Shown here: positions 8,920 through 58,600 of the stretch, one piece after another
Position numbering within the stretch: position 1 is the first letter of the stretch
Layout: every line of letters starts with the position of its first letter
Assembly: GCA_013115145.1 (NCBI GenBank)
Contig: JAAPAO010000004.1
Location: 1-64,000 of the forward strand
Source of the DNA: Perkinsus chesapeaki
Taxonomy: Eukaryota; Perkinsozoa; Perkinsida; Perkinsidae
Direction of reading: 5' to 3'
DNA: 64,000 bases
Program-made: the position numbers and the translations under genes
Notes under the pieces: model-generated
Database searches by the model: none
Told to the model about the DNA's origin: nothing
What the model saw: only the letters and a program-made list of their open reading frames with translations

Positions 8920-10540
8920 TCAAACTCGCACCAGCGGGGCTCCTTGCTGATGCTTTTGTTCTTGTCTGACTGTTTGTGGACTACTTGGTGGACTTGTCAC
9001 CACTTTTGCTTTATCGGACTCAACGTTGTAACTGAAACCGTGTAATTTGGTCATGACGAATATAAAAGTAAAAACCCCTACGTGTCCCAACTAATGAGCA
9101 CCACAGCACCGAAAACCAACGCCGATCCGAGCACATAGACGCCCTTGAAGGTATGCAGACCAAGTATTGAACCTACCGAGCAACAACACTGGTGAAAAGA
9201 ACGCCACGAAACTTACTGTCAACAACCAAAGACAAAGGGATAGTTAACGATAGCCCAACAGCAGCGGCAAGAGGGGATAGGAGAATAACCTGACAGGACA
9301 TGACACGCATTATGCAGTGATGATGATGACACACCGCCACTGATAGAAGGTAATCTGAAGCAACACTTCCAAGGATGGCATTGGCCGTCATAGCGCCGAA
9401 TTGACCCCAGGTGGGTAGCATCTAACAGAAAGCAATGATAGCAGTAAAGGACTAGGACCTACCAGTGTCTCGAGACCTGTTATGTGGCATACAAGCAGCA
9501 GAGGTATCTAATAAAGATACTAATAGAGTTAATGATGTGAAAGATGATAACATCTTACACCAAGAACAAATGCCACTACACCAAACATGCCGAATACGTA
9601 GGCCACCATACGCTCATCGGGCACCTGAATGTAGAGACGTTGAGGCAGCAGACGGCGAGGATGTGGTACCCAAAGCTTAAGGCAGCACGTAAAGAGCCCA
9701 TAGCAGCATGCCGACCCCAATGCTAGGGAATCACCGAGGATGCTCTCTGGAACCTATACAAGTGAAATGAGCTTATCGGAGAGCATGGTAATAAAAGTAC
9801 GGCTAAGTCTGTCTTAGGTGATGGTCTATTAAGAGCTGTAATAAGGACACCAATGACACACATAAGGACGGCTGATATAGGTGCAGCACGGCATAATGGG
9901 TAACCGAGGAGGAGCTGATAAAAGGGAAGGTGATAGTTAATATTAATAAAGGGTTAGATTACTATTGAAAATATAAAAGTGAAGACACTTGAACAGCTCG
10001 ATAAAGAACTGTTAGTGGCCACTGAGGTATACTTCAATGAGATGTTGTATGACAATTGTGATACAAACCACATTGCACCTGACAACTTGACCATATACCA
10101 ACTTCCACAGTATTCATTCTCACCCAGCGCCCAGACAAGCCTCCTCTGTGGCCACTTGGCTTCCTCTAATGGCACAACTGCTGATGCTGATGCTGATGCC
10201 AGCAATGGACTGGACTCAGTTGGCGGTAGAGTGTCTTGGCCCGGCATGTGGATGAACTTACGGCACCCCAATAATAGAACAGATAGTGTTAATGAGTATA
10301 CCTGCCAGATATCATTCCAAGTAGCTGTAACGTTGATGATGATGATGATGAACTTACAGTGAGGGCCACAGGCTTGTCATAATCGCCACTGGTGAATATT
10401 AATTGTATAGCGGCACCGGAGGCCACGAAGGTTATAACAACCAATGCCATGACCTGAAGTAAATGGAGGGGGAATGACGCAAGAAGGCGCCTCCTCACCG
10501 CCAATCCTAGTAGTGTCCTCCTGCTCGCACTGTTTATCAT
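8920..10540 (-). CDS. SLC35F5-like drug/metabolite transporter, paralog 2
   Basis: Same family and exon plan as the gene at 1002-2736. ATG at 10540 (MINSASRRTLLGL), TGA at 8920. Marks: VMALVVITFVASGAAIQLIF (first membrane helix), WALG-AMWFVSQLSYNISLK across the intron 10123-10079, VATNSSLSSCSSVFTFIFS, GSACCYGLFTCCLKLW, VPDERM, PTWGQFGAMTANAILGSV and AAAVGLSLTIPLSLVVDS. After the penultimate junction at 9216/9173 the sequence SILGLHTFKGVYVLGSALV runs to a short tail. The exons are clearly diverged from paralog 1 except in 9811-10026. It has no counterpart to the 2163-2212 intron. The intron at 9173-9216 carries the family B motif, whereas the intron at the same place in paralog 1 has unrelated sequence. 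Confidence 0.8.
9173..9216 (-). repeat. Introner, family B (sense), 44-nt intron of transporter paralog 2
   Basis: Intron after GTTGACA with AAGTTTCGTGGCG just inside the donor. Paralog 1 has an intron at the same place but without the motif. Confidence 0.65.
9811..10026. repeat. Near-identical tract shared with 1941-2156
   Basis: Second copy of the putative gene-conversion tract, including intron 9962-9915. Confidence 0.95.
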
Positions 10541-10589
10541 ATGGGATAAAAACAACTACCAGAAATACTGCATCGCTCCGCTAATTATA

Positions 10590-10763
10590 GGTGAACATTG
10601 AAACTCAAGAGGAAGAGGAGGCCAACAACACCTGCAAGGGTTCAGTCAACTTTCATGGCTTCTTTATGATGAAGATGATCAACACCAAGCCGTTCAAATC
10701 CACTGGTCCGAATCTCGCTGCATGGCGCACTAGTCTTAGGGCCACTCTTGCTAATCTGAAGTG
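10590..10763 (+). other. Possible orphan coding exon
   Basis: Follows an acceptor-like TATAG and reads VNIETQEEEEANNTCKGS then NFHGFFMMKMINTKPF and NLAAWRTSLRATLANLK to a TGA at about 10763. The composition is protein-like, but no upstream exons or family could be identified. It may be the last exon of a lost gene or a fragment. Confidence 0.3.
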
Positions 10764-10775
10764 ATGCACTCACCA

Positions 10776-10868: not shown

Positions 10869-11090
10869 ACCTGAAGTGTGAATGATCTTATCATGTGGAC
10901 CTGCTGCAAAATTGGCATACATGCAGTCAGGGGGTGAGGAGAGCAAGAAATGTACAAGAAATTTACAGGATTCCAATCCCTCATCTTCGAGGTTTGATGA
11001 TGAAATGAGAAAAGGTGCTACATGGTCTTGCAACATCAGACTACCGACTCACTCAAGGTCGAGGAGGAAGTATCCTCCTTCGGGTGTCGA

Positions 11091-14381: not shown

Positions 14382-15951
<1,570 letters not shown>

Positions 15952-16924
15952 TTAATGTTCAATAGCTAAGATATGGTTCGATATGGTTCGATATCTCCAC
16001 TTCACCGGTATACACCACCCTTCATCTTGTGTAACAGTACCTTTAGCCAAGGGTCGATTATCCCTCTGATGTTTTCTCCCAGGACCATTATCTCCACTAC
16101 CACCGCCTGGAGCAGCCCAACGCTCAGCATCCCTAGCCTGGGCATCCATCATACCTAAATACCCATACCCGGGATCGAACCTGCGACCTCCTCACGTTGG
16201 AGCTTTTCTTGATGCTGGCGATCTTTATCGAATGCAGCTCCTTCCTCATGGTTCCTAGTATCTATACTCCTATTATTTTTATTCCAATCTATGCTGCTAT
16301 CTAATCCCTACTTATCCCAAATGCCTTTGCCGCTCTATCCGCTTGTCGTTTTTGCATTTGAAGGTACCTTAATAGGGCTTTATAACACCCCCTTAAACCT
16401 TTTACCATTACTCATGCGTGCTAGCCATTTGATCTGCCTGTAGTTCCCCACCATGGGCCTCGGCATCCGCTCGACGATCATCAAGCTCCTTATACCTTAA
16501 CTTTCCGACTGTAATGGTCACTGGTAAAGCGTAGTACATTTTCTCTCTTTCTTTATCAACCTTTTTCTGTGCAATTTCCTCATCCTCTCCAGCGTCTATT
16601 AAAGTGTCATGTAGATCAATCAGTTTAACCTCAATCTCTCGTTTTTGGTTATGATAACTAATGCCGCATCAAAAGATATTCTTTACAGTGCGCGATTTAA
16701 GTATATATGCTCACATCAACTCAGGATCAGCTTTCTTAGGCTTTGGTGGTGCTGCTGCCGCTGCTTCATTCTCTCTAAATGGTTTAATATCGGTCCTCTG
16801 TGGTCGTAGATATGATTTGTTCCGTTGTACCTGATTAACTACTAACTACTAAGTACTTATATAATATTACATAACCACTGGTTCCACTCCCCCTAGGAGT
16901 CTGCAATCCAATGCCGTTATACAT
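15952..16924 (-). CDS. CWC21: Cwc21/SRRM2-like pre-mRNA splicing factor
   Basis: Component near the spliceosome catalytic centre. The start [24 protein letters not shown] (ATG at 16924, split by a short intron) is the family hallmark. The cwf21 domain follows: KREIEVKLIDLHDTLIDAGE and EEIAQKKVDKEREKM. The middle exons (YKELDDRRADAEAHG, KRQADRAAKAFG) are partly unresolved. Then come FDKDRQHQEKLQR joined to MMDAQARDAERWAAPGGG, and RDNRPLAKGTVTQDEGW near the end. The last codons near 15952-16000 are uncertain because a short terminal intron is possible. One intron (16195-16155) is a family A introner, so a splicing-factor gene is itself interrupted by one. Confidence 0.8.
16155..16195 (-). repeat. 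Introner, family A (tRNA T-arm, sense), 41-nt intron of CWC21
   Basis: Starts GTGAGGAGGTCGCAG and contains GGTTCGATCCCGGG, ending GGTATTTAG. Joins QEKLQ to RMMDAQ in frame. Confidence 0.9.
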
Positions 16925-20070: not shown

Positions 20071-20084
20071 TCTTTTGGATCTGT

Positions 20085-22438: not shown

Positions 22439-23544
<1,106 letters not shown>

Positions 23545-26418: not shown

Positions 26419-26652
26419 CATGTACGTTTCATCGGTTTTTATGTTTTGTTTTTCTATACTTAATAATACAAATCATTAATCACTCGTACAGAAACACTAA
26501 TAGTAGATTATCGCTTTCTGTTCGCAGACGCCGCCATATTGCCTCCACCGATGAACCCAAAAGCCGATGAGCATGGTCGAACAGCAGGAGCAGCTGCTGC
26601 TGCGGCTTGTTGGGGGTAAACCTACAATACATCACCGTTTTAGTAACCATCA

Positions 26653-28970
26653 TCAACTACTCACATTAGAAGGAGCCGGATGCTGTTGCTGCTGTGCTGC
26701 TGCCGCTTTGGCTGCTTCCTTTGCAAAGATATCATCCAATTGCTGCCCACCAGGTGTATCCAATCCTCCAGAGTATGACCGCGTCGCCACGAAACTCTGC
26801 TGTTGTTGTTGTTGCTGCCGTAATGATCCATTAGTCTGCAGGCTACCCCCTGCCAAATCGGGGAGCAAGGTCGTGGCCTGCTGAGTTGGGAGTATCTTCG
26901 ACGGTGATTGTTGCATTCCAAAGATATCAGACTTTGGAGATAAATCAGGCAGCAGTGTCGTCTGGCTACTGCCAACTTGTGCAGCTGGTTGTTGTTGCTG
27001 CCCCAAATTCAATGCATATAAATCGACCTCGGGCCCTGCTTTAGGCTTCACAATTGGGGCAGCATCAATAAGGTCAGCCTCCCCCATGAGCAGTAGATCG
27101 TCATCTCCCCCCTCCTTTGCCACATCACCTTTCTTCCCATCATCCGTATCACCTCCTCCTAAATCCAACAGGTCCGGCATGGTGGCTGCTTCAGCAGCCT
27201 TGGCTGGTCGATGATGCTGCTGCTGTTGGTGGCCAGAACCCTGGAGTGCTCGGCTAACTCGAGCCGCGGTAGCCCGACAAATTTGAGGGAGACCTTGGGG
27301 ATCGGAAACACACTCTGTACAGATATCCCGGACCTGTCATTAATTTCGTGGCGCAGTGACTACTACGATAAAGGCCTGGTAGTAGTATTACCTCCTCTTT
27401 ATCAGCTAAGCCTTCAACTGCCCTCAATGCTCGAAGTCTGGCCTGGGGCGGACCCTTGGTGATTCGAGCTGCCAACTCGGATGCTATCTCGTTCATGTCG
27501 TACTCAGATGATGAATCACCATTTACTCTGTTTAAAAATACCTACGAGTATCTTTTCGCACCCGGAAGATTTTTGCCCATTTATTACCCCAACAGCAACC
27601 GATCCATTAGCCAGTTGACTGACTAACCGATACTCCGCCGTTCGATGCTCCACAGGCGGCGCTGATACCGATGCTCTATCCACAGCAGCAGCAGACTAGA
27701 TTGGAAATAATACCATTAACTACGGAGCGAAGCAGCAGCAGCCACTACTACTACTTTGTCGACTGATGGTGGGACCCACATTCCTCTATCTGCTGCGTAT
27801 TGCTGATTATACGTATTATTATATTGTCCTTGCTGGGGTGAAGGATACCCTCCATTATAGGTCGGTGTAGGACTGATAACATACTCCTCACACCTCCATC
27901 ATCATATACTAACCCGTAGCCTGAATAGCTGTGCTGAGGCCCGCCAGAGGGAACAGTCGAACCACCGCCATGCCATCTTTGGTAAGCCGATGACAAAACA
28001 CTAGCAGCACTGGCAGCTGCCTGACCGACCTTACCAGCGATCGCGCTGGCTGTCGAGCCAGCCTATAGATGATATCAATATAAATCAAATGCAACATCGT
28101 ACCTGATTGCTGCTGCTGTTGTTGAAGTCATTAAATTCAGGATTGCCAAAGCCTTGCATTCTCCCTGTAGTGATAGGAGGTCCTGGATAGACCCCACCTA
28201 CAGGCTGATGGCTCTTAGCTAATACAAGGTTTGCTATTACCAGGGTAAGGCAAAGGCTGCTGCTGTTGCTGGGGTGCAGCCCCACCCCAGGACGGAGGAG
28301 GAGGAGGCCCAGCGATACCACTACCATCCGATCCGAAACCCTATAAATAATTATACCACATTTCCTCCTGATGATCCCCGTTATAACCTTGATTCGGTCA
28401 TGGAAACCAGAATGGGAGGCCGGAGCAGCTGTGGAGGGCTGACCAATGGTTGTCTCGTTAAATATCATTTTTAAAGCTTCCTCTGCTTCCTCTCGTACTG
28501 CCTTATTTGGGGCATCACCACGAAGAGGATCCACAGGGCCACGGAACATTCGACATGACTTCACTACGTCAGCTCGTCTACATTAACGGCATACCGTAAA
28601 TTCCTTCAATTGTATAGTACCGTTGCATCCTCTTTTTAAAGTCCATACTGGCCTGTACTTGAGCATCGGGATCCAAGATATTTCTGAGGTTGAATGGAGG
28701 TCCTCCATATAGGACAGGAATCTTTCCCACCTTATTATTCTCAGACATTTGAATTTAACATTGGCGTCGTCTTTTGATGCTATCTTGTTGCAAAGGTAAT
28801 CCTCCAATTGATGAGACCCGTTGGGAGCATAGGTCATCTCTGATAGATATCATAGCTCGAATCATGCAAGATAGAGAACAGGTTATATTACTCGCTATTT
28901 CAAGATACATATATCCTGGTGTAGGCTGTGCATCTGCAGTAGTTGCTTTATTAAGCAGTCCTCTATCCAT
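26653..28970 (-). CDS. ENTH/VHS-domain adaptor, tepsin/epsin-like
   Basis: Trafficking adaptor probably acting at the trans-Golgi or endosomes. The ATG at 28970 opens with MDRGLLNKATTADAQPTPGY, the ENTH start of tepsin-type proteins (AT-D---PTPGY). It continues with ANVKFKCLRII, then CRMFRGPVDPLRGDAPNKAV and REEAEEALKMIF, matching the tepsin FRGPPDPLRGD region. A Gly/Gln/Pro-rich linker follows, then EHRTAEYRLVSQLANGS, EIASELAARITKGPPQARL, and a Gln-rich tail with LLPDLSPKSDIF and LDDIFAKEAAKAAAAQQQ, ending at 26653. The second helical segment resembles the tVHS-like domain of tepsin. Three of its introns carry introner families B, E and C. AP-4 accessory role is inferred only from the family. 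Confidence 0.75.
27334..27391 (-). repeat. Introner, family B (antisense), 58-nt intron of the tepsin-like gene
   Basis: Contains TCACTGCGCCACGAAATT near its 3' end. Joins GLADKEE to VRDICTEC. Confidence 0.88.
27542..27599 (-). repeat. Introner, family E (sense), 58-nt intron of the tepsin-like gene
   Basis: Contains AAAAATCTTCCGGGTGCG then AAAAGATACTCGTAG. Nearly the same as 37931-37970. Joins LANGS to VFLNRVNG. Confidence 0.85.
27696..27754 (-). repeat. Introner, family C (sense), 59-nt intron of the tepsin-like gene
   Basis: Contains GCTTCGCTCCGTAG. Joins PPSVDK to SAAAVDRASV. Similarity to the other copies is mainly the core. Confidence 0.6.
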
Positions 28971-32394: not shown

Positions 32395-33663
32395 TCACTT
32401 CTTAGAGCCACCGGACTGCGCCTTCTCCTCCTTTCGGGCTGCCTCATGAAGTGTTTGTCCCCATCCTGCTGCCTTCTTCTTATCAACCTTCACTGTACCA
32501 GCAGCAGTGGTCTCACCCTTCAACAAACGACCGACCATCGCAAGATTCTTGGACTTCTCCTCATTAATAGGAGTCTGTCAGTATGAAAAAATAACACCGC
32601 CATTGCCCGCCCCCCTTTGAACGTACAGCTGTGTTAACCTTCCTACGCTTCGAAACTGGCACCTCCTTCTCGTTTTTCTGTCGCTTGTCGAACCTGCGGC
32701 CATAACGGCCTCATGCCAATCATCATAATTAGCCCATCAGACTCACTTGCCACTTGATGCGGAACTTTTTTGGGCTCGAGCTAAACTCTCTCTAAGATTG
32801 ATGGTACCGCGCTTGATAGAGCCCAACTCAGGTCCACCGGATATGCCTAAATAATAGTCTACTACACGTGTGGGATTATCTTACCAGCTGGCATCTTCTT
32901 TCCAACACCCTCGAGTTGATTTCTCATCTCACGGACCTTCTGCTTGGCTTGGCTGAGCTTCTCGATAGCCTTCTGCTTGGCGAAAGGATCCTCATACCTT
33001 CAAGAAATGCCCTTACCGAGGATCGAACCAACGACCTTCCCCTACGGATTGTCTCCACGGTCTTCATTAACCTCCACCAACCAGTTCATCTTCTCCTGGT
33101 TATGCTTAATAGAGTTATGACCCCATCTTGGAACCCAATCCTTAGATGTCTCATCCCACACCATTCTACTGCGCTTCTTCTTAGCGTCCAATCCCTTCTC
33201 CTTAGCAAACTTCTCCCACCTAAATCACTCACTCCCCCAAGCTGTGGAGGTCTACCGTACCTCGTCATAGGCTTGGGCTTAGGAAGAGGCTTCTCACGGG
33301 GCAATCGGACGACCAATCCCTCGGGTTGACGAGCTAGTTGGCTCGCCTAACAAGGAAGGCCCCATGCAAGGCAATCCACTGAAGCCTTGGACTACCTCGG
33401 GCAGTGTGGCAAAGACAGGTCCCTCGGCGGTTCCAGCCGACTCAGTTCGCAAATCAAATATGTGATTGATGAGAAGCTGTGCGTTATCCCGAGCTGAACG
33501 GTACCATAGACACCTCAGCCTTCCAGCAGATACTACCTATAGCTTCCAAATCATCCTTTTTAGGGTCGATATGACCGATATCGAAGGCTGCTAGATCACA
33601 GAGCTGATAGGAGAGATTATCCTCCTTTTCGGGGTAAGGGGAACGAAGAGCTTTTGTGGACAT
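32395..33663 (-). CDS. RRS1: Ribosome biogenesis regulatory protein RRS1
   Basis: Nucleolar factor for 60S assembly and 5S RNP incorporation. ATG at 33663 (MSTKALRSPYPEKEDNLSYQ), then ARDNAQLLINHIFDLRTES, VFATLPEVVQGFSGLP and GRPIAPREKPLPKPKPMTR. The family core is EKFAKEKGLDAKKKRSRMVW then DETSKDWVPRWGHNSIKHN. Also EDRGDN-PYEDPFAKQKAIEK (joined over the introner at 33045-32998), basic KFDKRQKNEKEVPVSKRRK, and a final exon to a TGA at 32395. Length and order match the RRS1 family. Confidence 0.93.
32998..33045 (-). repeat. Introner, family A (tRNA T-arm, sense), 48-nt intron of RRS1
   Basis: Starts GTAGGGGAAGGTCGTTG and contains GGTTCGATCC, ending GGCATTTCTTGAAG. Aligns end to end with Rab6 intron 14559-14514. 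Joins RGDN-P to YEDPFAKQ. Confidence 0.93.
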
Positions 33664-36531: not shown

Positions 36532-38203
36532 TTGAGTGAATGCTTATCAGATAGTGGCTTTCCGATCGGTATTCGATGTCGATGGTACAGGAAGTATCCT
36601 CAATACTGCTGTAAATCCTTGGGTGAGCCGTTGTATGAAATAATGGTTGGAAATAGTAGCTCCTATGAGATCTCTCCGGATGATGTCGGTTGTATGGTGC
36701 TAGTGGAGGTTGAAGGAGTTGGGTGTAGAGGAAGGGCTTTGTTTATGAGTAAAGGGCCAATGGAGATGGATGTCGGGACTAGACGAACAATTGATAATAT
36801 AGTGGCAGCTGGCGGTACACGGTTTCAAGTGCATTGGATATCGGAGAGTGGCGGCGGGGGAGAGGAGGAGGAGTTCGATGCGATCATGCAGCTTGCTAGG
36901 GAAGAGGTAATAATAAAAGAGTGGTTGGGATGGCAGGGATTAGTTGTAGGTTCGGCTGATCGTCACTGCGCCACGAAATTCGCAGTCTCCGAGGGCTTGC
37001 AAGTATAGTAGTGAGTATCCTGTGGTTAGGATAGATCCATGTGGGCATCGTTCGAGATTTGATGTTGTGGTGGGTAGAGGGGAGGTGTGGAAGTTAAGGG
37101 CATTGAGCCGACAGGCAAGGGACTTGGCGGTCCTGGCGATGAGGTCATTGAAAGGGTTGCATCTTTATGCAGTTAGCAGGTCGTTGGTTGAAGGGGAAAT
37201 GGGAGAAGGGGGAGGGAAGATGCTGATGGTTATTGAAATGGAGAGATTGAGGAGTAAAGTGGCGGGGCTTATAGGGGAGGTAGAAGATACGGGGAGAAAG
37301 TGGAAGAAGGCTATGGCTGAGAAACAGGCGTTGGCTGATCAATTAACTGATACTATAGAGGCTTATACTAAGGTAGGGGGGATATATGCAATTTAGATAG
37401 GCAGAGAAAACCTCAGCAACCTTACCGCTACGCTGAGGGATAGATTGGTTGTGATGGTATGTAGTTTTGATAGGTGATGGAATGTGGCAGCAGCAGCCTT
37501 GAGGGGGTGATGTATCGACCGGCTCGGGAGATGGATGCTGAGGCTGGTGATGGAATGGTGGAGGAAGAAGTAGAAGAGGACCTCCGCCTTAATAACAAAC
37601 ATCTAACGGCAGAAGTTAAAACGCTTCGGGCGGAGTTATTGAAAATGAAGGTGATAAAAAAGGAGGGGCTGGGGATAGAACCGAGGACCTTTCGAATGGG
37701 AGTGACCCTTCTTAGCGAGAATCCTCGGCTGATATTACTCTACTGCGGGTGCGAGAAGCAGAAGAACTGAATGCTGAGCTTAATCGTGCGAGGAAGACTG
37801 TTGAGGAAATGCAAGAGGTGCAAGATGTGCAAGTGAAGCGGCTGGAACGGCAGAAGGTGGCGGTTGAAGAGGAGAGAGATCAGCTGAAGGAGGAGGTCGC
37901 AGAGTTGTCGGAAATGTATTTGAAAGTTTGGTATGGGAAGAATCTTCGCAGTGCGAAAAGATTCCTTTAGGTCGTCCAAGGGACCTTGTACGGTAGATGA
38001 CGGATTGGTGAGTGAGTTGATAAAAGAAGTTAATCGATTGAAGGAGGAGAATGTCTCTTTACGGTCGCGGGTTAGGAAGTTAGTGGCGAGGAATGAGGTG
38101 GTTAAAGTGGAAGAGAAGGATGGCTTGCCTGATGGTATCTAAAAATCTTACGAGTGCGTATTTGATGATAGCATGTATTTGAACATTTCTAGATGCTTTG
38201 TAG
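36532..38203 (+). CDS. Coiled-coil protein, function unknown
   Basis: Begins within an exon reading IRCRWYRKYPQYCCKSLGEP and SYEISPDDVGCMVLVEVEG, which resembles the repeated beta domains of some plant/alveolate coiled-coil proteins. After the family B intron come YSSEYPVVRIDPCGHRSR and ALSRQARDLAVLAMRSLKG, then long heptad-rich exons (MERLRSKVAGLIGEVED; NKHLTAEVKTLRAELLKMK; RARKTVEEMQEVQDVQVKRL; ELIKEVNRLKEENVSLRSRV). The end is either a TAA at 38139-38141 or, after a family E intron, a TAG at 38201-38203. The 5' end is unknown. Four of its introns are dispersed family members (B, A antisense, E, E). Confidence 0.6.
36946..37003 (+). repeat. Introner, family B (antisense), 58-nt intron
   Basis: Contains GTCACTGCGCCACGAAATTC. 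Joins GWQGLV to YSSEYPVV. Confidence 0.85.
37651..37715 (+). repeat. Introner, family A (T-arm, antisense), 65-nt intron
   Basis: The reverse complement carries GAAAGGTCCTCGGTTCTATC then CCCAGCCCC. Joins ELLKMK to RESSADITLL. Confidence 0.75.
37931..37970 (+). repeat. Introner, family E (sense), 40-nt intron
   Basis: Contains AGAATCTTCGCAGTGCG then AAAAGATTCC, able to fold as an imperfect hairpin. Joins LKVW to SSKGPCTV. Confidence 0.88.
38135..38192 (+). repeat. Introner, family E (sense), probable 58-nt terminal intron
   Basis: Starts GTATCTAAAAATCTTACG, then AGTGCGTATTTG. Splicing would add three codons and a TAG; without splicing a TAA follows at once. Confidence 0.65.
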
Positions 38204-38469: not shown

Positions 38470-41400
38470 ATGCCTCCTCCTCCTCCTCCATCCTGCTACA
38501 TTCAAGTTCAAGTCCGCCTTCGTCCGGCATATGATCCCTTCGGCAGCTCCTCACCGTCATCAGCTAGCACCATTCCATGGCAGGATATTTACGACATTGA
38601 TAAGGAAGCTGTAGTGGGGGAATCGGAGACAACACTGACGGTTAAGGATCCCCTGTCGAATGGTCGATGCGAACACTACTTTCAATTTACCAGAGTACAT
38701 CCGCCTGAGACTGGTCAAAGTGATATTTTCGAGGCGTGCGGGAAACCGCTGGTGGATCGGCTTCTGGAGGGCTACAGCGGATGTGTGTTTGCATACGGTC
38801 AGACGGGCAGTGGGAAAACTCATTCTGTGTTTGGGCCGAATCTTTTGAGGGGAGAGAAGCTCCGCACTGGGAATGATTGGGAGGGCATCTTGCCGAGGTC
38901 AGTAAGGTATCTATTTAAGAGAATTGCAGAGAAGGCCAAGATGAAGGAATGCGGGCTAGTTGCTAGCTTTGTGGAGATTTATTTAGACCAGGTCAGGAGG
39001 AAGGGAGGACAATGTGACCTATTTGGTATCTTTTATATTAACCTAGTATCTGTGGGCTCGAGGCTTTATAGCGATTTATAGCTCAGAGAAGTGGCAATTT
39101 CGTGGCGTGCTGGAATTCACTTAGAAATAACTGGTTAGCAGATACGTGACCTTGGACTGGCATCGTGCTCGATGTCAACTGATCAACAAGTTGGAGCGGG
39201 TCGCCCGCAGCGTCCGGTCAGCGCTCCTGCTGGACACAGTAGAAGCTATAGTAGCCTGGTCGGTAGCAGGAGGCCTAACAGCGCAACTGGAGTAGTATCT
39301 TGAGCTTGACCGTGCAAGATACGGAAGAGGTCAACTACGAATTCTCAGTTACTCTTCGGAAGTTCTCCAGGCAAACAGCCAGCATCAGATTGGGAATCTC
39401 AAAACTTAGAGCTTCACGAAACCCCAACAGGACAGGTGTTCGTGAAGGATTTGACTCTCCTTCCTATAAGGAGCGTTGAGGAAATGCTAGAAATCGTAAG
39501 ATGATCAAGATTTCTCATTAGATCCAGAAGGCTTATTCTACTAGGTTCGCAAAGGCAGTGCTCTAAGAGCTACTTACGAAACGGCTATAAATTCTGTATC
39601 GAGCAGAAGTCATACCATATTTTCGTTGAATCTTGTGACAAGGAGCCGGGGAGTTGGGGAGAAGGAAGGGGAAGTTATATCGGGAATACTCAACTTCGTG
39701 GATTTGGCTGGTTCGGAGAGATTGGCGAAGAGCCGAAGTGAAGGGGTTAGATTCCAGGAGGCTGTTATTGTTAATAGCAGCTTATCAGCACTGAGTAAAG
39801 TTATATTAGCCTTGACATTACAAGAAGCTGCTGCTTCTGGTGGAGGAGGAGGACGGAAGGTTTACGTAATATTCCGGGGACGATCGGCAATAAGACTTAT
39901 TACTATTCTCGCTGTCTAAAGCGTCTCTGTTATATTAAGTAATCTGGTGTATAGAATGACCAGTAGTAGCTGGAACATAATACTTTTATTATTACAACTA
40001 CTGTACAATGCTACCAAAGCCAGCAGAGTGTATAGTAGAGATCGAAGCAGTGCTGAGTGTGTGTTTTATTATTAACTACCAATCTCCTACATAAGCCTCC
40101 TTTATTTTATCAGATACCATATAGGGATTCCAAGTTGACTAGATTACTCTCACCAGCCTTGGGAGGGAATTCCTTTACAACACTTCTTTGCACTATCAAT
40201 CCAGCTACAGCAATGTATCAGGAATCACTTAATACTCTGCAGTTTGCTGATAGATGTGAGTGGATACGTGCTTCGCTCCGCTGAGGAATGTTGATTTTTA
40301 GGCAAGAATGTGAGGAACAGGCCGGTTGTGGGATACTCCAGTGTCGGTGGGGGGTCCCAAGACTGGAGGGTCCGAAGGCTGCTACAGGAAATAACGGAAT
40401 TGAAGGCACAGCTGGCTTTGGCCAAGAGCAGCTTTGAACAGAGGGTTGCGGTTATGAACGAACAGAGGGGAGGAGATTCTGATAGAAAAAGCGTAAAAAA
40501 GGGTGGAGAGGGGGACGAGCCGACGGCAGAAGAGGAGTTACTGATGGAGGCAGAGGCGCTGCGGGGGCAGATAGCAGCTGAGAAGCAAAAGGCACGGAGA
40601 GCAGAAGAGAAGGCTGAAAGGCTGAAGGAAGATTGGCAGCATTCGATGGAGAAGCAGTTTGGTGAAGAGGAAGCTGTTAGAAGGGAGAAGTTGGAGTTTA
40701 TGGACAAGTGTAGGGCGAGGGAAGTGAAGGCTGCGAGGGAAGTGGAGGTGATGAGGGAGGAGAGAGATAAGACAGAGAAGGAAATGAAGGAGAGAATAGG
40801 GAAGATGGAAAATGTTGTTAGGGAGGCATTTTATGGAAGTAAACAGAATAAGCTTACTGATAAGATGAAGGAGTTTATGCAGCAGCTTAGAGGTGAGCTA
40901 ATGAATATCTTTCTCTCTTCAAGCTATGATATGGGCTTTGCGATGTATATTATTTGATTGAGAACTGCTTTACCTGAGCTACTCCAGATCTTTATACGCC
41001 CAGCTTGATAATTTCATCACTCTTTAATCAGATTTGGATTCCTCCTGTCGGTACAGCATTCAGTCGGCGGTGGATCGATTGGATGAGTTGAGGGTAAGTC
41101 AGTTATCTGAGCAAAAGGCGGCCTACGAGGAAGCATTGCGAGCGAAGGAGATTCAGTGGAGGCATTGGAAGGAGGAGGCTGATATGCATAGTGGAAAAAT
41201 CAAAAGAGCATTTATTAGGTGGGGTATCTTGAGGTTAAGCATACATGATACTAACTAGGTTGTTTTGAGGTACCGTGCAGAGAAGCACAGCAAGATAGCA
41301 CTACTTAAGGAGGAGCTTCTTCGGTTATACAGCGTGAATAGGTCACTTTGCCGAGTTGTTGCCGACCTCGAGGACGGAAGATACGCAGTGAAGTTCTCCA

Positions 41401-41658: not shown

Positions 41659-44538
41659 ATGTCTCTTCTGGTAACTGCGGCGGCGGCGGGCGGTGATCGT
41701 CTAGCTAAGATATGTCGGAGCTTGGAGGCCAGTGGGCATATGAAGGGTACATCAGGAGGAGCATCCATTAGAGTAGATAATGATGATAAAGTATTGGTAA
41801 CACCAAGTGGATATTTAAAGGGGGAGCTTAAAGGAGTTGAGGACTTCTTTATGGTAACAACAACAACAGACAGCACATTCAGCAGCAGTTCGTGATGACG
41901 AGTCTTTCACTTGAAGAGTATCTAGCGCACCTCATAGCAGTTGTCTTGTCATCATTTATGTCGAGCAGTTCCCTGAAATAACTTAACCGCTTCAAACTGA
42001 ACTACCTTGGTCGTTTGATTGTTTAGTGAACTGGAGAAGTGGTGCTGATGCTGTTGTTGTCAGGTTTCAGTTTCATCCGGGGAAGTTGTGGAGCATCCAA
42101 AGAATGGTGATGTCCCGAATAAGTTATCTGATTCTTGGGAGGTCATTCGAATGATTTATGAGAAAGTTGGTATGGATGAGTGTGCATGCGTGCTACATTC
42201 CCACCATGAAGCTTTGGTACTGGCTGCTAATATCGATGATATGCGAGTAACGGTGGATGATGAGGTGAGATGGTTATGGAGGGCACCAGAAAAGCAGGAG
42301 ATGTTAAAAGGAATAAGAGGCTATGGAAGTAGGTTGGGCTGCTGCTGCTGCGATAGGGTCACGGCAACAACGGTGGGGAGCTGAAAAGTGAAACACGAGG
42401 GTGAGGTTCTCCCTCTGATCACACTTCAGGGGGGGATGCGTACTTGGAAAAATATCCCCAGGAACTGTTGACAGAAATGTAGACATCTAGTTCAACACAA
42501 GATTCTGAGATAGGCAGGCAAGTAGTCTGGCTCGTGAAGTAGTTCCACATACACTAGTGTACTAATGTATATATTACCAGAGCTTGATGGAGGCCTTCAT
42601 TTCCATATCTTCGGTATGGTCCGCCGTTTCCCTGGGGGAGTGGTCTTCGTTCAGATGATGGTGATCCTTTGATGGTACCAAAAATATCTAATACACCTCA
42701 TGAGAAGGATCTTTGCCCGGAGCTAGCAAGGGTGTTGGATGGTGGTAAAGGAAGGCCACCTGTTGTTATTGTCGAGAACCACGGAGTTTATCTATGGGGG
42801 AGGACATGGCTTGAGGCTGTAAGGCATTTGGAGTGTCTTACATGGTTAGGTGAGATGAGGGGATTCTACAGTCTGCTGCTGGTCTAGGGCTGCTAACTTT
42901 CAAACACACCGTTTGTGGGCATTGCATTCCCATGTTGTTTTATTCTCATTGTCAAGTCTCACGAACTGCTCTCAGCTTTGAACACGTTTGGGACTGGGGG
43001 CCTTGAAATACTCTGATCATGATATACGCTCGGAAATACAGTAGTTTGTCTAATTTTATGCTTACCCTGATTATAATTACGGGTAACTGAGAATCTTTAT
43101 GAGCAGACAGCTGTTGAGCATTGTGCTTCAGCCCAATACGCCGTACTGGAGGCAGAGTGCTCCCCAAGACGGAAAGTACGAAGAGTGTCGGCTAGTAAGG
43201 GAGATCTGGCGGGCCGAGTGGTACTGTTGTTCTATGTCCGCTCCTGCTGATAAGGCGGTGGCTTCTAGTTACTCTTTGATGTGGAGGGCACCACTACTCC
43301 CATATCATTTGTTAAGGAAACCCTGTTCCCGTTGGCAGAGAGGAATATTGGAGAGTGGACGAAGAAGCATTGGGAGGATACAGAAGGAGCGCAGGTGAAC
43401 GGGGTGGTGGGAGGACAACTAACAGATGGTTAAAAGTCTGAACGGTCGCAGTAATATCGATGGTTTCATGGTAACTATTGCGGTCGCTTGGGAAGGTGTG
43501 TCCAAGCATAGCAAGGGAAGGCTGGATCACCACTGAGGCATCATTGCAATGGGTTTATATTTCATATTCCCACTTCTCTTAATTTTTGAAAGTTAAAATG
43601 GGGAAGGCATTTGAGCGTTGAGTAGATTGGTGGGCTGTTTTGTATAGGTTAGGCAGTTGCTACCGAAGGGCCTGTCAGGGGAGGGCCCGGAAGGTGTGGC
43701 AGAGGAGATGCGGAGATGGATCAAAGCGGACCGAAAGGAAGCGGCGCTGAAGACAGCACAAGGTCTCATCTGGAGGGAATCATACGAGAATGGCTCCCTG
43801 CGTGCACCGATGTTTTCGGATGTTGAGAAGTGTTGGATGGACTGGATAAATAGAGGAGCTAGAATAGCCATATTTAGCAGTGGCAGTAGGGAGGCACAGA
43901 GGCTCATTTACAAGTATTGTAGAGACGAGGAGGAGGAAGAAGGCAATGACTGTTGTGATCTTACAAGGTGAGTAGCTGCCATCGGTCGATTGCATGAGAT
44001 GTGCGCTGGGGAGGATATTCCTTTGCTTCCTCTCTGAGATGTGCGCTGGGGAGGATATTCCTTTGCTTCCTCTCTGAGATGTGCGCTTGAGTTTACTCGG
44101 AGAATCCCCGAGCAATCGAAGATTCGTAAAACATCACGCATAGCCCGACTCAACGTGGGCTCACCTTTGCTTCTGCTGCTGCTGCTGCAGTAAGCCGCGT
44201 CGTAGTCGTCTGTTCAGGTATATTTCATGTTATTTCGACCCGCCTTCGGTCGGTGGTCACAATAAACAGACACCTCAAGCCTACCAACAGATAGCATTAT
44301 CGATGGGAGCTCATCCGAAAGATATTTTATTTTTTACCGACATACCCGGCGAGGCGACGGCAGCAAAAGAAGTTGGCTGTGAGTTCCGGGTTTTGTGGCG
44401 CGCGGTCAAGTGAATTGTGTATTGTGCTTAGATGGCACAGTTATTGTAGTCCGAAAAGGGAATGCTGCGATCGATCGAGAGAAGTTGATGAAAGAAGGCC
44501 ATCAAGTGGTGGAATCTTTTGAGGAGGTCAAATTATGA
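41659..44538 (+). CDS. Fused methylthioribulose-1-P dehydratase / enolase-phosphatase (methionine salvage)
   Basis: Two consecutive steps of methionine salvage in one protein, as in plant DEP1. N-terminal MtnB part: ASGHMKGTSGGASIRV and VLVTPSGYLKGELKGVEDFF. Then CVLHSHHEALVLAAN (metal-binding His), SNTPHEKDLCPELARVL and VIVENHGVYLWGRTWLEAV. C-terminal MtnC part of HAD type: DVEGTTTPISFVKETLFPL (catalytic Asp), WIKADRKEAALKTAQGLIW, IFSSGSREAQRLIY, YFDPPSVGGHNKQTPQAYQQ and ILFFTDIPGEATAAKEV, ending with TVIVVRKGNAAID to a TGA at 44536-44538. The MtnB-MtnC join lies in the exons at 43100-43290, whose borders are not all fixed. Start ATG at 41659. About ten introns; one is a family B introner and another holds a 40-bp tandem repeat. 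Confidence 0.88.
43996..44088. repeat. Tandem 40-bp repeat in an intron of the fused MtnB-MtnC gene
   Basis: Two full copies and 13 nt of a third; the unit begins GAGATGTGCGCTGGGGAGGA. The full copies are identical, so the array is recent. Confidence 0.95.
44379..44431 (+). repeat. Introner, family B (sense), 53-nt intron of the MtnB-MtnC gene
   Basis: Contains GGTTTTGTGGCGCGCGGTC. Joins AKEVG-Y to GTVIVVRKG. Confidence 0.85.
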
Positions 44539-44952: not shown

Positions 44953-46210
<1,258 letters not shown>

Positions 46211-46621: not shown

Positions 46622-49429
46622 ATGTCTTACAATCGACTTGCCTTGGCCGCTGTTAGGTCGTCGACGTCATCGTCGGCGACCAGTCCTTCAGCAGCAGTTT
46701 CATCGGTGCTTTGTTGTTCATTATCATCCATCTCGGCCATGTCTTCTGAAAGGCACTTTAATTTGTTTTTCAAGCGAGAAGAAATGAATGGAGGTGAATC
46801 CTCACCTCATCGCAAGTCGATAGTTGTTATTTAGGCCACGGAGCCAACGGGACGTTCTGTAAATCTGTTCTGTTGGCGGCGGCAGCAGCAGCCTTGGTGG
46901 CGTCTTCCGGCGCCGAGACTAGTCTCTGCGATGAACCGCAGCAGCAGCAGTTTCATAGGGATTTTGGTAATCCTGTGAAAGGCTTGAAGACCTATAAAGC
47001 TGAGGAGGTGAGGCAATTGATGGGATCGAGTAAGGTCTGGTGATAGGTTAGGAAGCACAATGCAGAGGGACAGAGTGTGTGGGTTACCTATAAAGAAGGA
47101 GTTTATGATATAACTAACTTTGTTAATGAACATCCTGGAGGAAAGGAGAAGATCTTGATGGCAGCTGGTAAGGGGGTTGGTGGGATGTGCAAGTAGGGTT
47201 GTTGAGTTGTATTTAGGCGGAGCGGTGGATGATTTTTGGAAGCTCTATCGTCAACATTTACAGTTGCCGGAGATAAGCCATATGTTAGAGGAGATGCGAA
47301 TCGGTGAGCTCTGATTCATTATGAACGAATAAGAAGTGACTGCTTGTTACTGCTGTACCACAGGCAACCTCGACCCTGAGGACTACGCCAATGCTCACAG
47401 ACATTCGGATAAGAAAGAGGACGATCCCTTCAAATTCGACCCGGAGGATCGCCATCCGGTAGGTCGAGTGTTCTGAGCATTGTTGATGACCTCCCATTAG
47501 GCGCTCCAGTTCCGTTCGCAGCAACCTTGTAACGCAGAGTCACCACCGGAACTGCTAGTGGATGCATTTGACACCCCGAGCTCTTTGTTCTTTGTACGCA
47601 ATCATTTCCCTGTTCCGCCTCCACCAGAGCGGGAGGTGGTGAGGTTCGAGGGCGGTGGGTTGGCTAAGCCGGTTGAGATTACTGTGGAGGAGTTGAAGAG
47701 TAAATTTGAGCAGCACACCGTGCACGCTGTTATACAGTGTGCCGGCAACAGACGCTCTGAGTTCAATAAACAGCTTGAAGGAAAGCCCCCGGTTAAAGGT
47801 AACTGTCACTTTTGGTCCTCCTCCTGAGATGTGCCCTCGCAGGTCTAAGCTGGACGCTCGGTGCTATATCAAACGGGTGTTGGAGGGGTCCCCTGCTGAG
47901 GGATGTTGTGGAATATATTTATGGAGATGTACCGGAAGATATCGCTACCAGCGGGCATGTCCATTTTTGGGGCAGGGATGGCGATGGTGAAAGTAACTAT
48001 GGCGCAAGTGTACCAGCTGGGAAGGTAAGAAGGATAGCTTATAGGGTTCGGAGTTGGAGAAAGCACATTACTAATGACTGCCATATCTACACAATCATTA
48101 AATCCGTAAGACTTGCCTCGACATTCCTCCTATCCGAGTTGATTATTACATATGAGGAAGGATAAGTTGATAATCTATACTCTGACCAACGCTCATCTAC
48201 CTACAGTCATCATATGTTAAAACCTATAAATTTAAAATTTCAAGTGAAAACTCTAAAAAATGAGTGATGAGGCCCGTTGAAAGTTCAACCGACTTTAGAT
48301 GACGGCTACTGTACCTACAATCTTATGCTACCTCAGATTTTATTACTCCTGCCGTATGCTGATGTTGGATATGTCAGGTGTTCAGTAAAACTGGTGATGT
48401 TATTTTAGCATTGGAGATGAATGGTGAACCTTTATCGGTGGACCATGGATGGCCGGTCAGAGTTGTGGTGCCTGGAACTGCCGGTGCAAGGTGCTGCCCC
48501 TGGGGTTCGAACCCGGGTGGAGTGATGTTACTTTAGGAATGTTAAGTGGTTGTCGAGGATCTCCTTGGAGAAGGAAGAGAGTCCTTCATTCTGGCAAAGA
48601 AATGATTATAAATTTTTACAAGTGGGACTGCGCACGCAATTTTGCGGCGAGTGAAATCTGATCTGGTAGGAACATACTGATGCGGAGGAAGCTCAGGCTC
48701 TTCAGACGATGCCAGTGACAAGTGCAATATGCCACCCCAAGGACGGGGCAACAGTCCAACTGGACGAGCACGGCGAATTTGTCTGTAAAGGGTAGGGTAT
48801 AGGGTTCAAATCCCCCCGGCAGCATTTTGTACAGTTATGCCTACTCCGGTGGAGGTCGTCGTATTAAAGAAGTCGATGTCTCTGTCGATGGAGGTACAAC
48901 ATGGTCCTCGGCTGTCTTGGAGGAGGACCCAGATGACACCGGAGAGTGGGGCTAGCTCATCCGGTCCAGCCATCTTTACTTGTAGATTCGGTCGGTCATG
49001 GTCGTGGGTGCTTTGGTCAGCGGTGTTATCGAAGCCTTCTACAAAATCCGAGGCTTTACTGAAAAATGTTGGAACGTCTAAGGGGGATGTGGTAGAGGTA
49101 AGACCGACGTTGCCGCGCCTCTTTGGCTCCGCGTGAAATGCACGCTCAACCTTGTAGAGTATCTTCAACAATACTCTCACCCACCGGTAGATGTATTATC
49201 TTCTATACTGTAACCTCCTAAAGACCTTTTCCCTGTCAGTTTCCTTTGAATGTATGTCTTCTTCTCATCCTTTATAGATTAATACTATCGCTTGTAGATA
49301 ATTGTTCGAGCAATAGATGATGCCAATAACACCCAACCAGAGAAGGCCTCAACTGTATGGAATGTTAGGGGTTTGGTCAATAATTCTTGGCACAGAGTGG
49401 TAGTCGAGCTAAAGGAGGAGCGAACATGA
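46622..49429 (+). CDS. SUOX: Sulfite oxidase with N-terminal cytochrome b5 domain
   Basis: Oxidises sulfite to sulfate, normally in the mitochondrial intermembrane space. ATG at 46622 begins with a Ser/Arg/Ala-rich leader (MSYNRLALAAVRSSTSSS), followed by a hydrophobic SVLLAAAAAALVASSG. The cytochrome b5 domain has VYDITNFVNEHPGGKEKIL with the haem-binding HPGG. The Mo-cofactor domain has SLFFVRNHFPVPPP, HAVIQCAGNRRSEFN (Mo-ligand Cys), HVHFWGRDGDGESNYGAS, LALEMNGEPLSVDHGWPVRV, TAGA-RNVKWLSRISLEKEES and YAYSGGGRRIKEVDVSVDGG. The dimerisation part ends TVWNVRGLVNNSWHRVVVEL at a TGA at 49427-49429. Exact splicing restores each motif. Three successive introns in the 3' half are introners (A, B, A). 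Confidence 0.94.
48491..48536 (+). repeat. Introner, family A (T-arm, sense), 46-nt intron of SUOX
   Basis: GTGCTGCCCCTGGGGTTCGA, then ACCCGGGTGG and an end in TTACTTTAG. Joins TAGA-R to NVKWLSR. Confidence 0.92.
48622..48669 (+). repeat. Introner, family B (sense, diverged), 48-nt intron of SUOX
   Basis: Contains CAATTTTGCGGCGAGTGA. Joins NDYKFLQ to EHTDAEEAQ. Confidence 0.75.
48792..48834 (+). repeat. Introner, family A (T-arm, sense), 43-nt intron of SUOX
   Basis: GTAGGGTATAGGGTTCAAAT, then CCCCCCGGCAGCATTTTG. Joins FVCKG to YAYSGGGR. Confidence 0.9.
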
Positions 49430-53386: not shown

Positions 53387-54006
53387 ATGTCTTGGTATCC
53401 CGATGATAGCGACTTTAACGCTTTGAGGAGGCTCCTGGTCTTGGCTCATCGTAGCGGGAGTTCGATAAGCATACCTAACCTTTGTACTGGTAAAAGTGGA
53501 GGGGCAGCTAATAGTAGCAGAATAAAGCTGCCAAGAAGAGGCGGAGAAGTAAGGTACCCAATGGTAGGCGGCCCCTTATAGAGTAATATACTTCAGTCAG
53601 AGGAGGAAGTGGCAATGGTTGTTAACTCAGCGGCTAGGCTACTAGCACCGGAAGCATTGAGAGTGCTGGTTAGAGATACTATACATCATGGTTCATGCGA
53701 AGGTGAGGTTTAGTGTCTTCACAATGGAGAAGTCAAGTAGCACCTTCTGGAGAGGACAGCCTTCTGTTGGATGATGTCGAGCGGTTGCTGAGATCAGCCA
53801 GCCTCTCCGCTGGAGGCGACAAGGTGAAGTGGATGGAATCGGAGGAGCTGTGGCCGAAGGAGGATGAAGGAGGTAGAGGGCTGCTCACTGAAGAAGAGGT
53901 CAGATTCTATGTGGAGTGGCTTGAGCTTAAGGGTGGTAAGGCAAAAAAGGAGCTAGGAGATGGCAGGGGTCGAATAGATAAAAAAAGATGGTTGAAAGAG
54001 CTCTAG
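53387..54006 (+). CDS. Hypothetical protein
   Basis: ATG at 53387 (MSWYPDDSDFNALRRLLVLA). The first intron starts at about 53549 and joins PRRGGE to SEEEVAMVVNSAARLLAPEA. The second, of about 35 nt, joins HHGSCE to VAPSGEDSLLLDDVERLLRS. The protein ends ELKGGKAKKELGDGRGRI with KRWLKEL and a TAG. About 165 residues, charged and helical, with no family recognised. More exons could lie upstream in 53203-53386, which otherwise shows nothing. Confidence 0.55.
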
Positions 54007-55540: not shown

Positions 55541-55671
55541 ACTCAGCGGCTCACGTGTGTGGTGTTTCTCGGGCCACGTTCACTCCTTTTTCAGTGTGAC
55601 TGCTGTTTGTGGCTTCGCGGCGGCGATATCGTTTATCGCGGCACCCCTCCTCACCTCCTCCTCTCCCGCTG

Positions 55672-58600
55672 ATGTCCCTCCCCCAGTCCCCCGGATCCCT
55701 CCATGCTATAGTAGAGCAGTTGGCCAAAGACCACTCCGATAGGCCGGCCGTCGACGGATTAGATGGTGATCCGTGGTCGTACAACAAGCTCTATGCTAGC
55801 TCCCTGAGAATGGCATCGGTTCTCCGCAGTCGGCTTGCTGGCTGTACCAAAGCTACCCAAGCTGGCTACTCCCTATCTATTGGTCTGTGTGCTCCTAGAG
55901 GCCCCCGATGGGTAGCAGTGTGTGTGGCGGCATCGATGCTTGGAGTACCATTTGTGCCGATGGTTCAAGATCTTCACCCAAATACGAAGAGTGAAGCTGA
56001 GGCGAAGAAGATCAGAGATACCACTGATGACCGTAACCGTGCCATAATGCGGGACATACAGCCAATGGTGGTGGTGGTAGATGATGCCACCACCCCCAAG
56101 GAGACGATTAAGTTGGTTACCTCCTTCGGACAGTGTACGGTCGTCGATATTAATTCGTTGCTTACTGAAGCGACGTGTTCCTTTTCCAAAGCCGTCGAGC
56201 CCCTCCAACCAGTTCAAAGGGAGTCCCCTCTGTGGTGAGTTTTTCCCTCTTTTGTGAGCCATGATCGTTTGTCTTTCTCAGTCTCCTTTTCACCGGTGGG
56301 ACCACGAAGGCTTCTAAGTGCGCGGTAGTTTCCCAAGGCATGCTAGCCCACGAGTTCAAGTCCTACCCGCTCATCGTACCCGATTCCCAACGAGGCATTC
56401 TAATGGGTGGCGACGGCCCTCGAGTTCTCCAGCAATCATCCTCCTACTGGGGGGCTACCTGCATTGGTCAGCTATCGCTCAGTTTGGCCCTTCAAGGGTG
56501 TCTGGTCATGGTGGACGTATCCTCTCAGAGGTCGTTAAGTGTCGGTATATCCTCGACTATGGACCTTCGCTCGATGATCACCAACTTTGCTATCAACGTG
56601 GTTGGTGCTGTACCGAGTCAATTAGCCGCTACGACTTTGGATGATGATGTCGCTAAGAGTATGCTGGCTGTGTTTACGTGGGGAGAGAAGCTCACGACCA
56701 CTATCGGGGACGAATGGAGCTCGAAGGTGAGGCCTCACTTTTTGGAGAGAAATATGACGCGTCCCGGACTCGAACCCGAGTGGCAGTTTCGAAACGGTCA
56801 CACCACGGGAGCCACGCGGCAACAACACCGACGTCATTCGGATCTCTTCGTCTCTTCCCTTTTGTCATGATGAATCTCTTCTTCCATAGATACCTATCGT
56901 CATCGAGCTGCTTGTTGCCACCGAGTACTGGCTTAGCATGTATCGATTAGTCACTCCCTATCCGACTGCTGGACCTGTCTTCACTGTTGTACCGGGTGTC
57001 CGAGTAACAACACTATCAGAGGATGAAGCAACGACTGATATCACCAAGGGAGAGCTCATCTTGGCCGGCCCAAGTGTCACGGAGACGGGCTATGTTGAGC
57101 AGGCGGAGAACGAATGCCTATTTGTTAAAGTCGATGATCGTAGATTCTTCCGCACCAATGATCTTATAGAGGTCATTGAATGGCGTGCCGAATCCGAGGG
57201 ATGTGCCGAGACGCTAAGGTGAGGGCTGTATGCTCTGCACGGTCTCGGATTTCAGCATTGCCAGATATCTCGGGCGAAGCGACATGTTCATAAAACTGGG
57301 AGGACAATGGGTCGACTTGGAAGTCCTCCAGGAGAAGATATCAACATTGCCGTGTGTAAAGGAGGTTGTCCTACTACAACAACAACCGAAGGTGTTGGAG
57401 GCTGCTAGAGGCACGGAGGGAACCCTAGGGGGGTTGAAGTTGGAAGATAATACAGAGCAGCCCTCCGTCCATGCCTTTATCATAATGAAGTAGTCTGAGT
57501 CTTTGTCAACAGTACCACATGTACCCTCTTCCCTCAGACCCTTCCGAATGGCCCCCATGGCTGAAGTCCAGCGTCTCCTACCCAGTGGTAATGTTGTACA
57601 AGTCCACTGGCTTGCATTACAGACTCTTCCACGCCACACTGCAACCGGCAAAGTCGATCGTCGTGCTCTCCTGGGTATGGTATCTGACGGGGATCTGCCT
57701 TCACCATCTGATGTTGAGCTAAAGCGATGCCGAGGCTACCTGGCGAGATGGTCCCTGATCACCGCAATCATCGCTGTCATCCACTACTTGGTTCTCGGCC
57801 TGTCGGGTATGTTCCTCGCCGCCCATTTCAACATTACCTATTGGACTCTAAAGATGGTCCATGGTAACATCTGGCGAATCCTCGAACACGCTAAGCCTCC
57901 CTATATCGCCGATGAGCCCGGTTTACGTTGGGTGCTTCGCTCCGTCCTCGACTGGTCATTTTCGGTTGTAAGGATGATAGCCAGTCAACTGAAGGATTTG
58001 GAGATCTCGATCAAATCGCGTGCGTGCAGTATTGGTGGCATCTTGGTCAGCTTCTCCTTCACTTTGATGCTTACACTAGCAATGGGTCTCCTATCAGATT
58101 CAGTGGTTTGGTCAGTAGCCTGGCAGAGCGCTATCTTAGTTACTTCTGGTTTGTTATTGGACAGCGCCTTTCCGCCGCTTGATGGGCCCTACAGGAGCCA
58201 GCCGTTGTGGTATAGAGCTTGCCATGGTCTAGTGCTGGTTGTTCAGTTCAATCTTTTATGGTGGTTGTCTATCGGGCGGAGTATTGAAAAAGATTCCGGC
58301 AAAGTAGCGGAGTGGACCAGAGATCCTGGAGCACCATGGTGGATGTCATCATGGCTTAGGGACTGCTCCCTCGACATGGACCAGACTACTAGCGCCCTTC
58401 GAGGATACAGCCTACAGAAGACCGATGCCCAAGAGGAGGACTTCCTAATGGACAGTGTGAGTGGTGAAGCTGCCCAGTTTGGTCATTCCAATCCCCTTGA
58501 TTAGGTATTCGTATCACCTCGAGACCTCCGTCATTGTCGTGATCATGATGAAGTTTTTGAGGGCATGTTTGATCAACGAAGTGGATGGACTACAACTGCT

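Follow-up and report, generated by a model that had tools for sequence, protein, structure and literature searches.

Short intron-associated repeat families in Perkinsus chesapeaki, one of them from the 3' end of a transfer RNA gene

Can repeated elements of a few tens of nucleotides make introns, or do they only settle in introns that are already there? The origin of new introns is a long-standing question, and it is raised by the first 64,000 nucleotides (positions 1-64000) of contig JAAPAO010000004.1 of the clam parasite Perkinsus chesapeaki, here C334 and called the window. A first reading of its letters alone (the sequence-only reading) had claimed that short introns of unrelated genes in it share sequence, that about thirty copies of five repeat families are present in 64 kb, and that the repeats created the introns. 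That there are several introner-like families, one of them derived from transfer RNA (tRNA), and that these short elements spread and often form much or most of introns of 40-60 nt, is a reading to which we would give an even chance.

Are the repeats real? Motif discovery was by K-mer, BLAST and pattern searches over the window together with 200 kb of unselected sequence from contig C223 of the same genome, and the families so defined were counted on both strands of the whole assembly (35.4 Mb, 884 contigs), with the identical pattern read backwards as control. Family A (AATTTCGTGGCGCG, at most one mismatch) occurs 1009 times against 4 in the control, family B (GCTTCGCTCCGC, exact) 781 times against 2, family C (GGGATCGAACCTGCG, at most one mismatch) 447 times, a count that may include tRNA genes, against 2, family D (GATTCTAACTAGGTTGATTGG, up to three mismatches) 31 times against 1, and family E (AGCTAGAGGTGTCAGAA, up to two mismatches) 428 times against 8; the excess is about 220-390-fold for A, B and C, about 50-fold for E and 31 to 1 for D. 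Base-by-base profiles were made from sampled copies (28 of A, 20 tailed ones of B, 44 tailed ones of C, 24 of D and 24 of E), and profiles of A, B and C were scanned over the window and the C223 sequence at a threshold that gives about one match per family in shuffled sequence. The matches number 18, 11 and 20, divided as 11, 6 and 12 in the window and 7, 5 and 8 in C223, family A being about five times denser in the window's 64 kb than in the 200 kb. Three of the window's C matches are real tRNA genes (Ile, Val and Glu), two more are one place on both strands, and 2 of those in C223 are also tRNA genes. Looser patterns add A-like copies at 9200 and 44389 and a B copy at 14678, and give one window copy each of D and E. 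Distinct core places of all five families in the window come to about 30, and the count given by the sequence-only reading stands.

Do they lie within introns? For nine core-bearing introns, spread over five genes (three with A, four with B, two with C; Table 1), there is support from homology, since the protein obtained by splicing can be aligned across the junction to solved homologues, in Rab6, PLPBP, RRS1, kinesin and MtnC, and splicing would there restore conserved coding sequence, as had been proposed. The sharing of sequence among short introns of unrelated genes is borne out by these nine, and with A, B and C taken together they form the similar introns in unrelated genes, at least four to a family, by which introners are recognised. 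For PLPBP the NCBI P. chesapeaki gene model FOL47_006953 has identical junctions at its three core-bearing introns, and its protein is the same as that spliced from the window wherever the two overlap; the model omits 13 residues. The second of these introns is in frame and has no stop, yet it is missing from the aligned homologues. The B core of Rab6 intron 3, at 15043-15073, has the top B score of the profile scan. After P. chesapeaki itself, the next relatives of the window's proteins are proteins of P. olseni and P. marinus.

Table 1. Core-bearing and related features of the window; names marked with a dagger come from the sequence-only reading
Feature	Position	Strand	Length (nt)	Core	Basis or remark
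Rab6 intron 5	14514..14559	-	46	family C sense (tRNA T arm and T run)	human Rab6A alignment, E 2e-61
Rab6 intron 4	14662..14705	-	44	family B antisense	spliced Rab6 aligns through junction
Rab6 intron 3	14771..15079	-	309	family B directly after donor	Rab6 alignment
RRS1 intron	32998..33045	-	48	family C sense	junction within human RRS1 alignment, E 8.1e-28
Kinesin intron	40256..40301	+	46	family B antisense	junction within KIF7 alignment, E 1.2e-32
MtnC intron	44379..44431	+	53	degenerate family A	junction within human enolase-phosphatase E1 alignment, E 9.5e-35
PLPBP intron	45660..45700	+	41	family A sense	yeast homologue alignment, E 1.3e-41; FOL47_006953
PLPBP intron	45814..45879	+	66	family A antisense	yeast homologue alignment; FOL47_006953
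PLPBP intron	46097..46142	+	46	family B sense	yeast homologue alignment; FOL47_006953
Intron only in transporter paralogue A	2163..2212	-	50		empty site in paralogue B
Transporter paralogue B intron	9173..9216	-	44	A-like	corresponding 52-nt intron of paralogue A (1244-1295) lacks the core
Predicted CWC21-like† intron	16155..16195	-	41	family C sense	gene finder, profile scan
Predicted tepsin-like† intron	27334..27391	-	58	family A antisense	gene finder and local intron call
Possible intron	36907..36985	+	79	family A antisense near 3' end	local intron call; gene finder placed a shorter intron
Predicted intron	37651..37715	+	65	family C antisense	gene finder, profile scan
Predicted intron 3' of kinesin motor exons	41219..41269	+	51	degenerate family D	gene finder, pattern
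Predicted intron, sulfite oxidase region	48785..48834	+	50	C-like T arm and CATTTT	gene finder, profile scan
Four cores	12130-12151, 13058-13079, 13203-13224, 13732-13753			family A	profile scan; stretch without clear gene structure
Core in 673-aa open frame	58905..58921	+		exact family E	outside any predicted intron

Does the association extend over the genome? It was measured with a splice-pair test, which takes the best GT-AG pair round a core, uses no coding signal, and has as its threshold the 95% point of 1500 random positions. Above that point are 14 of 46 copies of B (2.3 expected) and 7 of 20 tailed ones (1.0), 16 of 39 copies of C (2.0) and 16 of 44 tailed ones (2.2), and 7 of 24 copies of E (1.2). 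The strong-scoring introns of this test are nearly filled by B and C, and among the strong tailed copies the sense orientation prevails, 14 to 2 and 7 to 0. On the sense strand the donor motif GTRRG peaks just upstream of the core, at 12 per 10-nt bin against 1.6 for C, 14 against 1.6 for B, 7 against 1.4 for A and 6 against 0.9 for E (a second C peak, of 7, falls within the repeat itself), and the opposite strand has no comparable GTRRG peak, with at most 4 per bin and 1.4-1.6 expected. Because of this splice-pair and donor enrichment B, C and E are clearly intron-associated, and A less so. A self-trained gene finder, which merged genes and served for intron candidates only, gave its short-intron label to 4.8% of bases and, of the profile matches passing the strictest threshold, to 3 of 18 for A, 4 of 11 for B and 7 of 20 for C, and its exons contain 6, 1 and 3 such matches; by eye, several of the 24 D copies lie in GT-AG introns of about 42-50 nt. 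Repeats of several families, associated with introns, are present in this perkinsid.

How much of the intron is the repeat? It had been said that in many cases the whole of it is, from GT to AG, and this nearly holds for B and C; it does not for A and E. The repeating unit is mostly a core of 20-35 nt rather than an entire intron, with sharp ends and unrelated flanks (about 21 nt in A, 20 in E, 28 in D, 32 in B and 35 in C). Among the 15 pairs of a BLAST of the window against itself, only 45841/13059 (A) and 46104/15043 (B) join family cores, over 25 and 33 nt. A search with a 131-nt kinesin-intron query, like the self-BLAST, gave no further long copies; the similarity is therefore restricted to cores, and the idea of a long repeat was rejected. 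All-against-all comparison of predicted introns of up to 110 nt gave 4 pairs at E<=0.001 and 1 among shuffled introns, most introns being in no family. A composite element, with A as its 5' half and B or C as its 3' half, was also rejected: joint matches number only 3 and 2 genome-wide, where a rough estimate of chance gives about 1 and 0.3, so that composites with B are at most a handful among some 1000.

The anatomy of the introns is regular. When an element is read in its productive orientation, the 5' splice site precedes it by mostly 3-11 nt, and by up to 20, and in families B and C the T-rich 3' end of the element stands 3-16 nt before the AG; both orientations occur inside homology-supported introns. 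In the mechanism that we favour, the non-coding elements dispersed through the P. chesapeaki genome, represented by their 20-35 nt cores, would be non-autonomous and of several origins, introns would be made or remade at insertion with a donor in or beside the target, and a T-rich tail would act as the tract before the AG.

What is family C? Its source is the 3' portion of a tRNA gene, from the variable loop through the T arm, the 3' acceptor strand and the discriminator A to the T run. Tailed copies are read from a donor through about 4-11 nt, or as many as 20, to AGGTC, then a T arm with GGTTCGATCC, nine free bases and GCATTTT, with the AG within 3-12 nt, which is the layout of a tRNA from position 44 to 73 plus terminator. 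The spacing is 9 in 91 of the 91 matches listed, when 8-14 was permitted, and the control gave 0. Family B shares the GCATTTTT end (GCATTTT), and in 20 matches its free stretch is of 10, 11, 12 and 13 nt in 3, 14, 2 and 1 of them; B has indels and C none. No full tRNA fold accompanies this: when 20 C loci were sampled, none matched the Rfam tRNA model at E <=10, and tRNA genes as the explanation of C are rejected for the sampled loci, yet 5 of 20 unselected C profile matches are true tRNA genes. The element has the B box and the T run at tRNA geometry, in all 91 matches listed, that are looked for in a short interspersed element (SINE). In that it is like tRNA-derived SINEs; unlike them it is only about 35 nt long, has almost never the A core as an A-box-like sequence upstream, and has no clear target duplications. 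An A box upstream of C in the same element was sought as the A core only, and joint matches of A core and B box are 3 genome-wide, with about 1 by rough chance.

On this geometry an RNA-copied, SINE-like origin is the most likely one for C, which would have been retroposed from a tRNA 3' end, and B may likewise have passed through an RNA intermediate. Could the introns of this genome be assembled out of RNA polymerase III transcripts, by way of their 3' ends? Copies of the last thirds of tRNAs, and of another T-tailed RNA (B), would then have entered genes, where the T run of the terminator would serve as pyrimidine tract before the 3' splice site, and A, D and E would make introns of equal size by related routes; this wider proposal we regard as unlikely. 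For the other families we have source candidates only: A, which is A-box-like, may be a tRNA 5' end, and A or B may stem from U6 small nuclear RNA, to which there is a resemblance. With the U6 model nothing was above the cut-off genome-wide, 47 of 2192 candidates being scored. Towards the 3' end of the best sub-threshold U6 match (23.2 bits, C540:4402-4503) lies a core of family A.

A constant distance between the blocks of tailed C, when the bases in between are not conserved, is also what might be expected if the cores were selected functional sites for DNA or RNA binding, e.g., TFIIIC-type B boxes or splicing enhancers, kept in introns as other non-coding DNA is scarce; the sharp cores point the same way, with at least 100 exact copies of E amid unrelated flanks. 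However, hundreds of 17-nt sites would be hard to produce by point mutation, the similarity in B and C spans 30-35 nt with the tail, both orientations occur in homology-supported introns and five unrelated motifs behave alike; we hold this explanation improbable.

Did spreading elements create the introns? A number of results weigh against this, and some against any close association. In the splice-pair test family A has 5 of 42 copies above the threshold, 2.1 being expected, and 0 above the 99% point, which is weak, and the intron lengths in that test are bounded by the test itself, restricted as it was to 34-62 nt. A coding-aware local test has 2 of 41 copies of A, 4 of 37 of B and 2 of 27 of C above its 95% null, which is at most weak enrichment and about chance for A. 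Many copies, most of all those of A, are outside confident introns; in A and E no more than about 20 nt is shared and the remaining intron is unrelated. The spacing of tailed C, with zero indels, misfits neutral decay of single insertions: either the copies came from many diversified sources or the geometry is under selection. A compensated T stem in C was rejected, with pairing of 0.61 against 0.64 when permuted and 7 of 44 copies fully paired. In-register repeats of at least 7 nt flank 2 of 66 family introns, with 0.22 expected (mean p 0.065), and flank similarity is marginal for C (p 0.02, with p 0.64 in a second C set), p 0.08 for B and p 0.28 for A. Target duplications, an optional trait of introners and a trait of tRNA-derived SINEs, are confined to few single cases, e.g., Rab6 intron 4, whose two junctions carry the 7-nt GTCAGGT as a direct repeat in register. 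For P. olseni our own reading of protein models is that FOZ60_007200 apparently runs on into intron sequence where PLPBP has its A intron, and that FOZ63_016273, a partial model, stops precisely at the junction of the Rab6 C intron.

Most direct is the comparison of two transporter genes 8 kb apart, for which, of eleven intron sites compared by eye, ten are shared and one is present only in paralogue A. There the frame of paralogue A requires removal of the intron, and the NCBI model FOL47_006939, which follows this paralogue, splices it out, while paralogue B reads straight through. The search for empty sites that had been proposed, run on this pair, gave one empty site, and the intron concerned, the sole one with such a site, fits no profile tested (A, B, C), which is again a point against creation by the repeats. 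So is the site that in paralogue B bears the A-like core: the 3' halves of the two paralogous introns are alike, and the core is in paralogue B only. Next to the presence/absence intron the paralogues have a 96% identical tract (1928-2162 and 9798-10032) ending at it, as if gene conversion had taken place recently and had halted where the insertion lies. The claim that the repeats created the introns is not proved: clear target duplications are lacking, the empty site belongs to no tested family, and some core-bearing introns are at sites where the paralogue, or apparently P. olseni, has an intron too.

Are the cores then merely short insertions into, or overwriting of, existing introns, gathered in introns and spacers since exons reject them, with no intron created? 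The A-like core of paralogue B, whose host intron has a counterpart in paralogue A, the two P. olseni protein models with their hints of introns, the sharply bounded 20-nt units of A and E in otherwise unrelated introns, and the many copies outside confident introns would all be in keeping with that. We nevertheless hold it somewhat unlikely. Seven of the nine homology-supported core-bearing introns, whose lengths are 41, 44, 46, 46, 46, 48, 53, 66 and 309 nt, are within 41-53 nt, like ordinary introns and no longer than others (the median is 46 nt for 205 predicted introns, limited to 34-75 nt), so that an insertion of 20-35 nt would need an equal deletion. The near end-to-end filling of the intron by B and C misfits simple insertion into old introns, and the closeness of the donor to the core and the prevalence of the sense orientation also tell against it. 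In addition the intron that FOZ60_007200 apparently reads into near the PLPBP B intron is 3 nt off it, a shift which, if the protein model is right, suggests sliding or a separate gain. On our reading the elements would be mobile and their insertion would have created many of these introns, rather than entering older ones, with colonisation or overwriting as a serious rival.

A different route to new introns would be the capture of pieces of small RNAs, tRNA 3' ends and others, as filler in the repair of DNA breaks, the spliceable ones surviving as introns. It would fit the identity of C as the end of a tRNA together with the T run, and the similar ending of B. Defined core ends with variable filler, occurrence in either orientation and the absence of clear target-site duplications would agree with it as well. 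In 150 of the 205 predicted introns there was, however, no excess of filler templated on a neighbouring exon: one of eight cells was raised (direct matches of at least 9 nt downstream, 3 against 0.9), and introns as local duplications of the neighbouring exon gave no signal and were rejected in the same set. Copies of one fragment in numbers of 400-1000 seem too many, the loss of T-stem pairing means that C copies would not come directly from intact tRNAs, and no source genes were found for A, B and E, with only U6 sought. Capture in break repair we hold very improbable.

Other features of the window are of a different kind. A retroelement-like block at 3326-8021 has a CCCH zinc-finger open reading frame (ORF), an ORF for a reverse transcriptase (Pfam RVT_1 at E 9e-6, which does not reach the cut-off) and an ORF of 362 aa, which has no Pfam match; by its motifs the latter looks to us like a tyrosine recombinase, and the block is possibly DIRS-like. 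Subtilase genes (Pfam Peptidase_S8) are at 17727-18927 and 20799-21806, with duplicated downstream flanks (19548-20073 and 22270-22727). A dispersed repeat of about 100 nt at 23692-23799, not obviously an intron, recurs in C223 at 66002-66100 and again at 53667-53759, with an incomplete copy at 175864, and a tandem array of a 42-bp repeat occupies 25976-26437.

How do the families compare with introners already described? The main text of Gozashti et al. 2022 (PMC9860276) has families of similar introns in unrelated genes with 5 to >2000 copies and median lengths of 30-654 nt, with splice sites carried by the element or recruited from the target or neighbouring exon, and some families without target duplications or inverted repeats. 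The families here are like those in crossing unrelated genes, and unlike them in that the similarity is mostly of a 20-35 nt core and one family is a tRNA 3' end; that main text uses neither the word tRNA nor the word SINE, and 'Perkinsus' is absent from it (the supplement was outside the scope). Polarella glacialis has 15 introner families of at least 100 introns each (Roy et al. 2023, as given in the review PMC11453091), and so, as in P. chesapeaki, core dinoflagellates have many families in one alveolate genome, but the passages of the review on introners name neither perkinsids nor any tRNA-derived family. The introner elements of Amoebophrya, in the passages of Farhat et al. 2021 (PMC7789003) on them, are a subset of non-canonical introns, averaging 120 and 240 nt in two strains, with inverted repeats of 8-20 nt between the two intron ends; these are repeated intronic elements in a parasitic relative, whereas the introns of P. 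chesapeaki are GT-AG and about 46 nt. Passages of the introner literature tie introners to DNA transposons or to RNA-propagated introner copies. In open-licence PMC, introner with Perkinsus matches only the Amoebophrya work, no title points to tRNA- or SINE-derived introners or to introner work on P. chesapeaki, and intron gain with tRNA-derived and spliceosomal introns matched only a human-mouse study; as this covers open-licence PMC only, it is weak evidence of absence.

A compact perkinsid in which a tRNA 3' end is one of several coexisting families, and which has annotated sisters in P. olseni and P. marinus, lets the question of whether such elements create introns or invade them be put to the test.

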